The notes beneath the pieces are model-generated. The model ran no database searches. It was not told where the DNA came from and saw only the letters and a program-made list of their open reading frames with translations. Source: Melioribacteraceae bacterium (GTDB taxonomy: Bacteria > Bacteroidota > Ignavibacteria > Ignavibacteriales > Melioribacteraceae). From it: a DNA stretch of 64,000 bases. Position numbers and translations under genes: made by a program. The stretch's first letter is position 1. Every line of letters begins with the position of its first letter. The stretch covers positions 1 to 64,000 of the forward strand of contig JALSTB010000043.1 in NCBI GenBank assembly GCA_026983955.1. The letters are read 5' to 3'. Positions 9,488 to 19,987 of the stretch are shown piece after piece.

Positions 9488-10378
9488 TCAAATATTTGAA
9501 TTAATAATTTTTCTAATTGCAACTCTCGCATCTCCGGGTCTGATACCCGCCGAAGTTAATTTCCCGGTATTCATTGAAACATCTTTCACTTTCGGAAGGC
9601 TTTGAATTTCATACATTGATGATTTTACAAGCAAATTTTTATCGCATCCCATTTCCTCACAAAGGATTTCGCCAAGTTCGAATCTCGAAAGACGTTCCCG
9701 CCCACCGAAGTTAAATGTTCCGCGTAAATCTTTGTCGATAATTTCCCCAATCATTCTTGCTGCATCATGCAATGCAAGGGGACTGCGGAATTGATCGGTA
9801 AATAATTTTACCGGAGTGCCGGTTCTCAAATTTTTGTACACTTGGGTAAAGTGGTTTGTTGCTCCGTTTAAGCCGAAACCATAAAGCAGCGCGGTTCGTA
9901 AAATGACATAATTACCGGAAACCGATTTTATTTTTTCTTCAGCACTAAGTTTCGACCTGGCATACAACGATACCGGACGGACCGGGGCTTTTTCGGTTAA
10001 CATTCCTTCGCCGTTACCGTCGTAAACCAAATCGGTTGATGTAAAAATCAATTTTGTACCGTATTCCTTGCAAAGTCCGGCTATAAATTCCGGCGCTCCG
10101 GAATTGATTTTCATTACTTCATGTTCCGGTAGTTTTTCTGCGGCCGCCGGATTTGAAACGGCTGCGGCTAAAATAACGGCAGCGGGTTTAAAATTTTCGA
10201 AAATGTTTTTTATACCGGTAAAATCCGATAAATCAATTTTGGCATTCTGAAAATCCTTGCAGTTACCGGCATTGGTAAAATAGGTAGAGAAAATTTCGTG
10301 TTTCTTCGCCAACTCAATATTTAAGTATTGACCGAGAAGTCCGCTTCCACCAAAGATTAAAATTTTTAAGGTAGACAA
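9488..10378 (-). CDS. RmlD-like NAD(P)-dependent sugar-nucleotide reductase (SDR)
   Basis: A 296-residue extended short-chain dehydrogenase. The Rossmann motif is FGGSGLLGQY near residue 10, the catalytic YxxxK is YARSK near residue 140, and the preceding FTSTDLVYDG strand matches RmlD_sub_bind proteins (dTDP-4-dehydrorhamnose reductase and relatives). It may act on a nucleotide sugar, but there is no rml cluster nearby, so the substrate is open. Its start lies 13 bases inside the end of anmK, indicating one transcript with that amino-sugar kinase. It ends 7 bases from the stop of the convergent five-PAS kinase gene. Confidence 0.8.
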   Translation of the reverse strand: MSTLKILIFGGSGLLGQYLNIELAKKHEIFSTYFTNAGNCKDFQNAKIDLSDFTGIKNIFENFKPAAVILAAAVSNPAAAEKLPEHEVMKINSGAPEFIAGLCKEYGTKLIFTSTDLVYDGNGEGMLTEKAPVRPVSLYARSKLSAEEKIKSVSGNYVILRTALLYGFGLNGATNHFTQVYKNLRTGTPVKLFTDQFRSPLALHDAARMIGEIIDKDLRGTFNFGGRERLSRFELGEILCEEMGCDKNLLVKSSMYEIQSLPKVKDVSMNTGKLTSAGIRPGDARVAIRKIINSNI

Positions 10379-11553
10379 ATTTTCCCCAGAATTGTTTTGC
10401 GCGTAGCTCCGGTTGTTTTCGGAATGTTAGTCGGTACTCCGTTTATGGTTTCATTGGCCAAAACGGCAAAGCAAATTGCTTCTTTGGCATCGGCTGAAAC
10501 ACCGATTTGATCTATTATTTTTACTTCAACGCTATCGCCGAAACGTTCGGCAATGCATTTATATAAAAATTTGTTTTTTGCCCCGCCGCCGCTGATAATC
10601 AGTTCGTCTATCGGGGTTGTGTCTTTAATGAATTTCTCATAATTGCGGTAAATTCCGTACGCTGTAAATTCCGTTATAGTGTTTAGCCAATCTTCTTTCG
10701 GAACGTCCGAAAATTCATCGTATAAATCGATTAAAAAGTTTTCGCCGTAATATTCGCGGCCTGTTGATTTCGGAGGTGATTTTTCTATAAAATTATCTTT
10801 GGTTACCAAAGCATTGAACAAATCTTCATTGAATTTGCCCGATTGTGCAATTTTTCCGTCTTCATCGTAATTTTTGTTGAAAAATTTTTTGGTTAAAGTA
10901 TCAATCATCATGTTGCCCGGACCGGTATCGAAAGCGAAGACATCATCTTCCGTTCCTTCTTTGTTCAGAACAGTGATATTGGAAATTCCGCCGATATTAA
11001 GCAAAGCCCGGTTTTTGGAATCGGAATGGAAAATAATGTAATCGAAGTAGGGAACAAGCGGTGCACCTTGTCCGCCTAATGCCACATCACCCGAGCGGAA
11101 ATTTCCAACGGTTACCACGCCGGTTAATTTTGCCAAAACCGAAGGATCACCTATTTGCAACGTGGAAGAAATTTTATATCCGAACCAATCGGTTTTTTCC
11201 GGGAGATGGTGAATTGTTTGTCCGTGGCTTCCGATTAAATCGATTTTTTCCGGTGGGAAATTTATCTCATTGCAAAGCGCAAAAATTGCATCTTTATAAA
11301 TGTTCGGAAGCAAAAAGTTCAATTGCGAAATGTCTTCAACATTACTGGTTTCTTTAACGGAGTTTTTCAGAATAACCAGGTCAAGTCCCGGAGGGAACGG
11401 GTATTCCATAAATCCGAGCATGTTGATTCTTGTACCTACTCCGCTACCCTCAAGTTCCAATAAAGCAACATCAACGCCATTCAACGATGTGCCGGACATT
11501 ACGCCGGCCACCACCCTCTTTTCTTTCTTCTGCAACTCGAATAATTTTTCCAT
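10366..11553 (-). CDS. anmK: Anhydro-N-acetylmuramic acid kinase
   Basis: AnmK opens the anhydro ring and phosphorylates 1,6-anhydro-MurNAc released by peptidoglycan turnover, giving MurNAc-6-P. This 395-residue protein has the N-terminal phosphate loop VMSGTSLNGVDVALLEL, IGSHGQTIHHLPE, the QIGDPSVLA strand, FDTGPGNMMID and the C-terminal ISGGGAKNKFL nucleotide-binding motif, all characteristic of the family. Length matches. It is the first gene of a two-gene unit with the RmlD-like reductase. No murQ or nag gene is adjacent, although a NagB-like fusion lies at 43.6 kb. Confidence 0.95.
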   Translation of the reverse strand: MEKLFELQKKEKRVVAGVMSGTSLNGVDVALLELEGSGVGTRINMLGFMEYPFPPGLDLVILKNSVKETSNVEDISQLNFLLPNIYKDAIFALCNEINFPPEKIDLIGSHGQTIHHLPEKTDWFGYKISSTLQIGDPSVLAKLTGVVTVGNFRSGDVALGGQGAPLVPYFDYIIFHSDSKNRALLNIGGISNITVLNKEGTEDDVFAFDTGPGNMMIDTLTKKFFNKNYDEDGKIAQSGKFNEDLFNALVTKDNFIEKSPPKSTGREYYGENFLIDLYDEFSDVPKEDWLNTITEFTAYGIYRNYEKFIKDTTPIDELIISGGGAKNKFLYKCIAERFGDSVEVKIIDQIGVSADAKEAICFAVLANETINGVPTNIPKTTGATRKTILGKICLP

Positions 11554-16209: not shown

Positions 16210-16959
16210 TTATTTTCCTGCTAACTCGTCGTACAACTTTCTGAATTTTTGTACGTCTTCCCAGCAACCTCGTTTCCAATTGGGATTGCGTAAAAGTGCC
16301 GCGGGATGATAAGTAACCATTGTTTTAATTCCCTCAACATCGTAAACTTTCCCGCGCATTTGTGTAAGTGTATATTTTTTCCCGAACAAATTTGTAGCGG
16401 CAACACGTCCCAAACATAAAATTACTTTGGGTTTTATTAATTCAATCTGTTTGTATAAGTAAGGCATGCAAGTTTCCACTTCCGAGGGAAGCGGGTCGCG
16501 GTTATTGGGCGGCCGGCATTTCAATATGTTTGCTATGTAAACTTCATCCCTGCTGAAATTTATAGCTTTTAATATATCAGTTAAAAGTTTTCCCGCTCTT
16601 CCGACGAATGGAATTCCTTGTTTGTCTTCTTCGGCTCCGGGCGCTTCACCAATTAGCATTACATCGGCATCGGGATTTCCCACACCGAAGACAAATTTGT
16701 TTCTCGTTTTTCCCAAAGAACATTTTTGGCAAGTATGAATTTTTTCGTAAAGTTCTTCCAGCGTTCCGGCGGATTGATATTCTTCGAAAAGCAACCCTTC
16801 ACTGTATTTTGTTTCTATTTTTTCCGTCACTTTAAGCTCTTCATGTTTTTCAGGTTTATATTTCGCGTTACCGTTTTTTAATTCTTCGAATAATAAATCC
16901 CCGAAAATATCTTTTTGGTCTTCGAGTGCGTTAAATATTTTTGTAAAATCAAAATTCAT
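16210..16959 (-). CDS. Family-4 (Fe-S) uracil-DNA glycosylase
   Basis: A 249-residue uracil-DNA glycosylase of the thermophile-type family 4. The core has motif 1 [12 protein letters not shown] and motif 2 HPAALLRNP. Four cysteines are placed for a 4Fe-4S cluster: CQKCSLGK near residue 80, and one Cys each in ILKCRPPN and ETCMPYL. An N-terminal extension of about 75 charged residues precedes the catalytic domain. It excises uracil from DNA, creating abasic sites for enzymes such as endonuclease IV. It heads a tight operon with dnaB and the DUF1460 gene, downstream of the rpoZ terminator. Confidence 0.93.
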
Positions 16960-17030
16960 CGGAATTAAATGGTTAACATAAAACGTTCATTCAATATAAA
17001 ATTTTTTTTGAAAGAATTCAGACAGAATAT

Positions 17031-17064
17031 AAAAAAGCGGAGACCGGTAGTACGGAATCCGCTT
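17031..17064 (-). terminator. Rho-independent terminator after yicC-gmk-rpoZ
   Basis: Read on the minus strand, a hairpin with 7-base arms AAGCGGA/TCCGCTT, a small symmetric internal loop and an inner CCG/CGG stem is followed directly by six Ts. It lies about 20 bases after the rpoZ stop and before the uracil-DNA glycosylase start, separating the two minus-strand operons. Confidence 0.75.
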
Positions 17065-17082
17065 AACAAAAATAAAATTATT

Positions 17083-17391
17083 TTATTTGCTTTCTTTTTC
17101 GCCGTCTTCTTTGTAACGGTATTTGATTTCGCCGTCCATCAATCTTTGGAGTGCAAGCATATGAGGTTTCGGGCGCTTTTCGAATTCAAGCGAAATTTTA
17201 ATTTGCTCGGTATTATCCCTTTCTTCGAATTCGTCTTCGTAACCTGCAATAAGATTATTTAGCAAAGTGTTAAATTCGATTTTATTTTCGTCGTTTATTC
17301 TCCGTGCTTCCAATGCTGCAACGATAACCGCCTCGTAAATGTTTGCGGCTTTATCGTTCAGCTTTGTCAGTTCAATCGGTTTAATTGGCAT
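17083..17391 (-). CDS. rpoZ: RNA polymerase omega subunit
   Basis: A 102-residue omega-type subunit that helps assemble beta' in RNA polymerase. The segment NIYEAVIVAALEARRIN matches the conserved region of omega (NRYELVxxAAxRARQL in classic forms). The C-terminus HMLALQRLMDGEIKYRY resembles the Bacteroidota/Chlorobi variant. It follows gmk by 4 bases, the usual yicC-gmk-rpoZ gene order, and is followed by a strong terminator. Sequence divergence from the Escherichia coli protein is high, so position supports the call. Confidence 0.85.
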   Translation of the reverse strand: MPIKPIELTKLNDKAANIYEAVIVAALEARRINDENKIEFNTLLNNLIAGYEDEFEERDNTEQIKISLEFEKRPKPHMLALQRLMDGEIKYRYKEDGEKESK

Positions 17392-17395
17392 AGCT

Positions 17396-17959
17396 TTACT
17401 CCTTTAATTCGTTTTCTATTATTTCAAAAACTTCTTTTTCCGCGCTTTCCAAATTTTCGTTTACCACGTTGTAATCGAATTTGTCTTTGAAATCCAGTTC
17501 CATTTTAGCGCGTTCTATTCTTTTATTAAAATCTTCTTCGGTTTCCGTTTTTCTGTTCTTCAATCTTTTTTTAAGCTCTTCTATGCTCGGCGGTAATATA
17601 AAAATAAGAACGGCTTCGGGAAAATTCTTTTTTATGTTCAAGGCACCTTTTACGTCAACTTCCAAAACTACCGATTTCCCTTCTTCAAGATTTTTTTCAA
17701 CATAACTTCTTAATGTTCCGTAATAATATCCGTAAAACTTTTCCCATTCAATAAATTCGTTATTCTTAATCTTTTCTTCAAATTCTTTTTCGGAAATAAA
17801 GAAATAATCTTTTCCGTCTTCTTCATAAAATCTTTTTTTCCGTGTTGTAGCCGATACTGAAAATACAAGCCCGGGAAATTTTGCAAGAACATCTTTAATT
17901 ATTGTTGTTTTACCGGAACCGCTCGGCGCCGAAAATACGAACAGCTTACCTTTTTTAAT
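17396..17959 (-). CDS. gmk: Guanylate kinase, apparently starting at an ATT codon
   Basis: A 187-residue guanylate kinase (GMP + ATP to GDP + ADP). Reading the minus strand gives P-loop SAPSGSGKTT near residue 11, GMP-binding SATTRKKRF, EEDGKDYFF, EWEKFYGYYYGT and VLEVDVKGALN, with no stop or frameshift. No ATG, GTG or TTG occurs in frame before the P-loop. The only plausible start is ATT at 17959-17957, giving MKKGKLFVF, with AAAGGAG placed 8 bases upstream. The only classical in-frame start (TTG at 17665) would remove the P-loop. The gene lies 13 bases after yicC and 4 bases before rpoZ. Confidence 0.92.
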   Translation of the reverse strand: MKKGKLFVFSAPSGSGKTTIIKDVLAKFPGLVFSVSATTRKKRFYEEDGKDYFFISEKEFEEKIKNNEFIEWEKFYGYYYGTLRSYVEKNLEEGKSVVLEVDVKGALNIKKNFPEAVLIFILPPSIEELKKRLKNRKTETEEDFNKRIERAKMELDFKDKFDYNVVNENLESAEKEVFEIIENELKE

Positions 17960-17961
17960 TT

Positions 17962-17976
17962 TCCAAACTCCTTTAT
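17962..17976 (-). promoter_or_regulatory. Ribosome-binding site deciding the ATT start of gmk
   Basis: On the minus strand AAAGGAG follows the yicC TAA stop and sits 8 bases before ATT at 17959. This ideal spacing is the main evidence that ATT is used as the initiation codon. Confidence 0.7.
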
Positions 17977-18848
17977 TCTATATTCTGGATTTGTTCTCTA
18001 ATTTTTTCCAATTCTTCTTTAATTAAAATACCCGTGTGTAAAATATCGGTTGAAATTGCCTTGCTGTTAATTGTATTTGCCTCCCGGTTCATTTCCTGTG
18101 AAATAAAATTAAGTTTTCTGCCAATCTCACCGTTGCTTTGCAAAGCATCTTTGAACATATCGAGGTGACTTTTTAATCTGACACATTCCTCGGTAACGTC
18201 ATATTTTTCAACCAACAGGGCAAGCTCCGTGTTCAACCTCAATTCGTTATCTTTTAATTCGGCCGAAAGTTGTTCGGCTCTTTCAACCAGCTTTGAAAAA
18301 TACTCTTGCACGGATGATTTATTTATCGATTCAATTTTATTTACCAAAGACGAAATTGTTTCAAGTCTTTCCGTAATATCTTTTCCCAGAGCTTGTCCTT
18401 CTTTCGCCCTCATCGTTTTCAAATCTTCCAAAGCATTGGCAAGCGATTCTTTTATTACCTCAAAACCGTTTTCCGTGTCGAGTTCCTGTTCTTTGAAAAA
18501 GAAATGTTGCAAACTTAATACATTTTCCAAAGTAGGTTCTTCATCAATCCCGGATTTATCCTTTATTTTATGCAAAAGTTCCATTGTGGAGTTAAGTGCT
18601 TCCTCATCCAATAAATTCCCCAAAACTTCAGCTTCATTAAATTGAAGCTTGATGTTAACAGTCAGCTTGCCGCGACTGACATACTTTTTGATTAAATCCC
18701 TGAGTTCAAATTCATTAACAGAAACATCTCTGGGAAATCTAAAAGATATATCCAAAAAACGGCTGTTAAGACTTTTAATTTCCGTTTCGACCGTTAATTC
18801 GCCGGCTTGGGCTATTCCTCTGCCAAGACCGGTCATACTCGAAGGCAT
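17973..18848 (-). CDS. yicC: YicC/YloC-family endoribonuclease-like protein
   Basis: A 291-residue YicC family protein. The N-terminus (MPSSMTGLGRG, then EIKSLNSRFLDISFRFPR) and the C-terminus (GRKLNFISQEMNREANTI, then SKAISTDILHTGILIKEELEKIREQIQN) are the two signature regions of the family. Characterised members are endoribonucleases implicated in mRNA turnover and stress survival. It heads the yicC-gmk-rpoZ operon, a conserved bacterial order. Start ATG 18848 is preceded by GGAGAGTATATGCC on the minus strand. Confidence 0.93.
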   Translation of the reverse strand: MPSSMTGLGRGIAQAGELTVETEIKSLNSRFLDISFRFPRDVSVNEFELRDLIKKYVSRGKLTVNIKLQFNEAEVLGNLLDEEALNSTMELLHKIKDKSGIDEEPTLENVLSLQHFFFKEQELDTENGFEVIKESLANALEDLKTMRAKEGQALGKDITERLETISSLVNKIESINKSSVQEYFSKLVERAEQLSAELKDNELRLNTELALLVEKYDVTEECVRLKSHLDMFKDALQSNGEIGRKLNFISQEMNREANTINSKAISTDILHTGILIKEELEKIREQIQNIE

Positions 18849-19146
18849 ATACTCTCCGGAAAAATGTAAACTTAAATTTAAATAAATATATTCTTTCAGT
18901 CAAAATTATTATCGGCAGACTGCTATACGGAATGTTTAAACATTGTCTAAAATACGGTACTGGGAATTAACGGTTATTTAATCCGGATAAAATTACATGT
19001 TTTTTGATAATGGAAAAGTCGATATAAAAAACGTTAAAGGGAACCGGATGTAAAAAAATTAAATTTTTGCTTTCTTGACATTCAATTCGCATTCAGATAT
19101 ATTTGTAAGCTCTAAAAAAATCTCTTTTTCGTAGGAGGAATGATTT
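18849..19146. other. 298-base divergent intergenic region (yicC / rplM)
   Basis: No gene is visible. It must hold the promoter of the yicC operon near its left end, where I see no convincing consensus, and the rplM promoter near its right end, annotated separately. The base composition is very AT-rich, with no clear inverted repeat. Confidence 0.6.
19075..19103 (+). promoter_or_regulatory. Strong promoter for the rplM-rpsI operon
   Basis: TTGACA at 19075-19080 is followed after 17 bases by TATATT at 19098-19103, a near-perfect housekeeping promoter. The -10 extends to TATATTTG, which also fits the TAnnTTTG -7 box described for Bacteroidota. It is 44 bases upstream of the rplM start. Confidence 0.7.
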
Positions 19147-19587
19147 GTGAAACAGGAAAAAATGACAAAGTTTATTAAGACCGAGGATGCCGATAGAAAA
19201 TGGTACGTTGTGGATGCCAGCGATCAAGTTCTTGGTCGGCTTGCTACGCGGGTTGCCAGTGTGATACGCGGAAAACATAAACCGGTTTTCACACCCAATA
19301 TGGATACCGGTGATTTCGTAATAGTGATAAATGCCGATAAAATCAAATTAACCGGTAAAAGGGCAAATGAGAAAACATATTTCCACCATACCGGTTACCC
19401 TGGCGGTGGAAAAACAAGAACCATTACTGAAATGTTACAGAAAAATCCCGAGTTTGTTATCAGACAAGCCGTAAAAGGCATGTTGCCCAAAAACAGATTG
19501 GGAAGGAAATTAATTAAAAAGTTAAAAGTGTATGCCGGTGCGGAGCATCCGCATACTGCTCAAAAACCCGAAACATTAAGTTTATAA
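19147..19587 (+). CDS. rplM: 50S ribosomal protein L13
   Basis: A 146-residue L13. Motifs include [19 protein letters not shown] near residue 20, [17 protein letters not shown], and the signature [13 protein letters not shown] followed by [14 protein letters not shown] at 19147 is the start because a GGAGG sits 8 bases upstream; ATG at 19162 lacks such a site. It precedes rpsI by 13 bases, the universal L13-S9 pair. Confidence 0.98.
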
Positions 19588-19600
19588 CAGAGGAATTTGA

Positions 19601-19987
19601 ATGGCTGACAAAATATTTATCGGTAGAAGGAAAAATGCCGTTGCTCGTGTTATTTTAAGAACCGGTACGGGAAAGATTACAATTAATAAAAGGGAATTTG
19701 AAAATTATTTTCCCCAAAAAAATAATCGCGATCAAGTATTGTTGCCGTTTGCCCTTACCGAAACTTTGGGCAAATATGACGTTTACGCAAATGCAAAAGG
19801 CGGTGGCGTTACAGGTCAATCCGAAGCCATACGTCTTGGAATTGCAAGAGCTTTGGTCGATATCAATCCCGATTTCAGGAAAGTGCTGAAACCCGAGGGA
19901 TTATTGACAAGAGACCCGAGAATGGTGGAAAGAAAAAAACCGGGTCAACCCAAAGCAAGAAAGAAATTCCAATTTTCGAAAAGATAA
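19601..19987 (+). CDS. rpsI: 30S ribosomal protein S9
   Basis: A 128-residue S9 with the N-terminal [19 protein letters not shown], the signature [19 protein letters not shown] near residue 64, and the C-terminal [19 protein letters not shown] tail ending in KR, which reaches the P-site tRNA. It is co-transcribed with rplM. Start ATG 19601 is preceded by AGAGGAATTTGA. Confidence 0.98.

Follow-up and report, generated by a model that had tools for sequence, protein, structure and literature searches.

A probable AUU start codon for the guanylate kinase gene gmk in a Melioribacteraceae lineage

The near-cognate codons AUU, AUC, AUA and CUG are known to initiate translation. The gene infC, which opens on AUU, AUC or AUA behind a Shine-Dalgarno (SD) sequence, makes the very factor (IF3) that discriminates against such starts and is hence autoregulated, while E. 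coli pcnB is reportedly another AUU-initiated gene, whose start codon Binns and Masters are said to have found expression-limiting in 2002. Outside infC, AUU starts are reported for few genes in the parts of the literature available to us, namely pcnB, cvfC1 and bbe22. In Staphylococcus aureus, the AUU start of cvfC1 and the AUA start of ccpN, both conserved and served by a strong SD, reach about 10 % of the AUG reporter level in poor medium (PMC13009471). The Borrelia burgdorferi metabolic enzyme gene pncA/bbe22, truncated in databases, has an AUU start supported by genetic work and by a crystal structure (PMC13398362), and Streptomyces sigR starts on GTC and was repressed by IF3 in tests (PMC5472188).

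The guanylate kinase gene gmk described here most likely joins the known class of AUU-initiated genes (infC, pcnB, bbe22, cvfC1), as it has no usable AUG, GUG or UUG before its essential residues and an AUU at SD distance. With infC it shares a near-cognate AUH start preceded by an SD, although Gmk is not part of an autoregulatory loop. Like pcnB it is a chromosomal gene other than infC, whereas the start of pcnB was reportedly tested by experiment. The S. aureus genes resemble it in their conserved non-canonical starts with strong SD, but encode a small protein and a repressor whose initiation was profiled directly (PMC13009471), while gmk encodes a nucleotide kinase and its start is read from sequence. 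Also similar is bbe22, a metabolic enzyme gene truncated in databases as gmk would be by callers, with the difference that genetics and a structure stand behind it (PMC13398362). In sigR a rare start occurs outside infC as well, but codon and gene differ, and the effect of IF3 was tested (PMC5472188).

The window, a stretch of 64,000 nucleotides, belongs to a draft Melioribacteraceae genome of 3.1 Mb in 190 contigs (G000), whose genus is represented in this analysis by four genomes, the others being G001, G002 and G003. The minus strand of the window carries yicC, gmk and an RNA polymerase omega-like gene in this order (Table 1). The protein matches guanylate kinase models well (TIGR03263 with 239.7 bits at a curated cut-off of 160.45; PF00625 with 168.6 bits), its P-loop is intact, and gmk is present in a single copy in the genome. 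The omega-like gene matches Rpb6 weakly, its PF01192 score lying below the cut-off of 26, and no NCBIfam model matched it.

Table 1. Features around the start of gmk, in positions of the window
Feature	Position	Strand	Remarks
gmk CDS from ATT	17396..17959	-	187 aa, N-terminus MKKGKLFVFSAPSGSGKTT; direct reading and profile matches
ATT (AUU), proposed gmk start codon	17957..17959	-	sole near-cognate codon at SD distance; same in G001
SD AAAGGAG	17968..17974	-	8 nt 5' of ATT; overlaps yicC stop; same in G001
yicC (YicC/YloC family endoribonuclease)	17973..18848	-	TIGR00255, 222.7 bits, cut-off 167.5
yicC stop TAA	17975-17973	-	13 nt before gmk ATT
TTG out of frame with gmk, probably what is left of its ancestral start	17964..17966	-	near in-frame TTG of G002, G003 and G021
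CTG, rival near-cognate gmk start	17942..17944	-	product would be MFVFSAPSG...
P-loop SAPSGSGKTT of Gmk	17903..17932	-	direct reading
RNA polymerase omega-like gene, next after gmk	17083..17391	-	ATG start with SD; PF01192, 16.2 bits

The gmk frame opens behind a TAG at 17980-17978 and thus extends from 17977 to a stop ending at 17396. The leader reads AAT AAA GGA GTT TGG AAA ATT AAA AAA GGT AAG CTG TTC GTA TTT and then enters the P-loop; no in-frame ATG, GTG or TTG occurs before the latter, the first canonical start being codon 105 of the open frame. An earlier note on this DNA had described exactly this situation, a frame intact from the P-loop to the stop and preceded by no canonical start, and direct reading confirmed it together with the ATT and the position and spacing of its SD. 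Of the interval 17396-17976 given there, the lower end holds, while position 17976 is out of frame. The prediction that automatic callers would truncate or miss the gene fits the frame as well: the longest canonical ORF in the frame is an 89-aa TTG ORF (17396-17665) that lacks the P-loop, so a mechanical caller would cut this essential gene to 89 residues. RNA folding near the start was nothing special (z 0.68), and an Rfam search of 16500-19700 gave no match.

Only two near-cognate codons, ATT and CTG, lie between the opening of the frame and the P-loop. As a pattern search found the 16S 3' end in none of the four genomes of the genus, and a 16S family match was obtained in only one of seven genomes (G045), the anti-SD was read from this family member as CCTCCTTTCT. 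With it, the SD:anti-SD duplex amounts to -8.3 kcal/mol for ATT versus -3.9 kcal/mol for CTG. The N-terminus read from ATT, MKKGKLFVF, furthermore matches relatives whose canonical start has the corresponding position (-9 in L029 and L010, with ATG or TTG). Comparison with relatives thus favors ATT as the best reading of the start, as originally proposed, and we estimate at roughly 0.86 the probability that gmk is translated from this AUU, decoded by fMet-tRNA and placed by the strong SD, with inefficient initiation that would yield a low rate of Gmk synthesis per message.

The nearest relative, G001, is a separate species (MAG contig JALVFE010000003.1), whose Gmk is 93 % identical to that of G000, with about 80 % DNA identity over the 3.5-kb region. 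It keeps ATT, AAAGGAG, the 8-nt spacing and the frame length, and within the 20 bases upstream of ATT a single one is changed, an A to G directly before ATT. For gmk we obtained a dN of 0.042 and a dS of 1.43, showing strong purifying selection and, with synonymous sites near saturation, ample time for ATT to be lost; retention of ATT, SD and spacing over this time speaks against both a sequencing error and a dead gene. Judged from this comparison, gmk is functional and its initiation region constrained. Whether related genomes keep ATT, a check suggested in the earlier note, received a split answer, as the other two genomes of the genus have TTG, so that conservation as an AUU-class gene is via one sister species.

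Among the 35 conserved window genes of the block syntenic with G001 (two further weak matches outside the block were excluded), 34 have a canonical start within the first 18 codons of their open frame, the exception being gmk. ATT codons abound in AT-rich genomes, and one alone would mean little; the weight of this one derives from gmk being unique among the 35 and from the conservation of ATT and SD. A separate gene of the window with an uncertain start is the conserved one at 9494-10426 (minus strand), whose first canonical start, a TTG at codon 17, overlaps the preceding gene. From 25 genes listed for a comparison of initiation regions between G000 and G001, one without position and one with a wrong start were dropped; in the remaining 23, gmk included, the start codon is always kept, and gmk is among the five most conserved regions together with yicC, rplM, rpsI and pyrH. 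The 44-nt conserved block over the gmk start is not unique, since four clusters of such windows (at most one mismatch) occur in the 3.5-kb alignment.

Translation from the CTG, with ATT as a mere leader codon, would be the next reading to consider, and this codon is likewise conserved in G001 and has an AAGG 4 nt upstream. Besides its weaker pairing, it would give a lead of only 4 codons before the P-loop, compared with 7 to 16 in the 92 genomes of the order with a canonical start (searched at 5-20 codons), and relatives show a TTG or GTG at -4 in their full start lists only alongside another upstream start. A single residue would then precede the first strand FVFS, against 3 to 4 in the aligned chains of the yeast enzyme, and we consider a CTG start very unlikely. 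A start at the old TTG or arrival of ribosomes from yicC, reaching gmk by frameshift, appears less probable still. Conservation of this TTG in G001 and its proximity to the in-frame TTG of the genus would fit, and a +1 shift following AAT/GAT would lead into the gmk frame. The TTG frame, however, ends after three codons (TTG GAA RAT TAA; in G000 TTG GAA AAT TAA, with the TAA overlapping the last base of ATT), GGAG lies just 1 nt from TTG but 8 nt from ATT, the A run is interrupted in G001 (GAAG) and hence offers no common slippery run, the frame relation of yicC and gmk differs among relatives, and the TAG blocks the gmk frame on its upstream side.

An assembly error concealing an ATG, GTG or TTG is hardly credible: the genome is a draft, but the other species shows the same bases and the same length from SD to P-loop except for two single-base differences. 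Reads with ATG at the proposed start, named by the earlier note as a refutation, are made unlikely by the ATT in this second assembly. Equally hard to credit is a pseudogene, which the missing canonical start might suggest, given the dN and dS values and the fact that this is the only gmk of the genome and intact to its stop. Sequencing error, pseudogene, CTG start and frameshift from TTG or yicC were all rejected on the evidence of SD, lead length, G001 and dN/dS. Points that count against the AUU reading include its occurrence in only two genomes, the conservation of the rival CTG and the rarity of such an event: a survey of start switches gives changes to AUU for 1 of 61,358 ancestral AUG and 1 of 5,080 GUG codons and lists none for 2,468 UUG codons (PMC5622118), making a UUG to AUU switch in gmk unusual.

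A more general feature than the ATT case, and one that the earlier note does not mention, is the weak gmk start throughout the order Ignavibacteriales. Out of 97 genomes searched, including that of the window, three had no gmk match; taking the canonical codon nearest the P-loop at 5-20 codons upstream, the remaining 94 start on TTG (50), GTG (23), ATG (19) or none of these (2, G000 and G001). Under a looser rule accepting any ATG in the 5-20-codon stretch, 25 have ATG, 67 only TTG or GTG and 2 none. The ATT-type start is thus confined to two of the 94 gmk-bearing genomes, and a scan of genome contigs, returning 41 loci, found one ATT-type locus (L031), on the same contig as G001. Relative to the yicC stop, 76 of 93 genomes measured have the start between 8 nt inside and 5 nt past it, and an SD-like core within 20 nt upstream is present in only 7 of 94, two of which are the ATT genomes. 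Loci L001-L030, L072-L131 and L146-L149 show TTG or GTG starts that overlap the yicC stop or directly follow it, in most cases lacking an SD. From its arrangement, the gmk start of relatives looks like termination-reinitiation.

The neighbors in the order use ATG almost throughout (rpoZ in 29 of 30 loci, yicC in 27 of 28; other fetched loci were too short to include them). Outside the order, ATG starts gmk in 15 of all 16 genomes listed for the same class and in 18 of 24 from the rest of the phylum, hand-picked from 89 listed (same phylum or so) at no more than one per family with few exceptions; three of these have TTG or GTG, one an ATG 28 codons up, and two were unread. Leaving out the distant-ATG locus and the two unread ones, Fisher tests gave p values of 4e-13 to 5e-12 for these contrasts; they are uncorrected for shared ancestry, hence overstate the independent evidence, and do not take base composition into account. 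A literature search returned no report of an order-wide weak gmk start or of gmk with a non-canonical start. An essential nucleotide kinase here has a conserved AUU as its putative start in an order where the gmk start is almost always weak, and the natural series of ATG, GTG, TTG and ATT could serve to test why this enzyme would be held at a low level and whether the influence of IF3 extends to central metabolism.

In the alignment, the distance from yicC stop to P-loop is 4 bases longer in the ATT clade than in G002, G003 and G021, and the TTG of this clade is close to their in-frame TTG but one base out of frame. Because the aligner set the gap beside the TTG, the two are likely rather than certainly homologous. 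Throughout the order gmk is kept on a weak start, TTG or GTG right after the yicC stop and usually without SD; in the common ancestor of G000 and G001 an indel with a net gain of one base between TTG and the GGT codon would have put the TTG out of frame. This reinitiation-type start was probably replaced by AAAGGAG and ATT, one weak signal being swapped for another. The order of steps is our reconstruction, and an ATG may have occurred as an intermediate. The strong SD would recruit the 30S subunit to AUU, where initiation would be slow, perhaps with help from ribosomes terminating on yicC 13 nt upstream.

Ribosomes of this lineage evidently initiate at such codons, as infC starts on ATC or ATT in all 12 genomes read (of 13 searched), with ATC in G000, G001, G002 and G003, in an open frame without canonical start; the host thus has an IF3 with an AUH start on its own gene. 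At the infC loci (L136, G000:C41, around 2370; L132-L135, L137-L142, L144) callers probably misplace the start. By analogy with infC, control of gmk by IF3 is plausible, and the ATC start of infC in this genome is a point in its favor. That the gmk start in Ignavibacteriales is selected to stay weak, making GMP to GDP a translational control point, and that AUU places the clade of G000 and G001 under IF3, seems unlikely to us as a whole; IF3 would not act on the TTG and GTG starts found in relatives, which speaks against such control as a conserved point. If true, GTP supply in this clade would answer to initiation-factor and ribosome status.

Possible further rare-start cases are gmk in G017 (L092) and G072 (L123), where no canonical start follows the stop of yicC. 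The only canonical starts there are TTG codons that overlap the end of yicC (at -15 and -14 codons), and ATA or CTG near-cognates lie nearer the P-loop.
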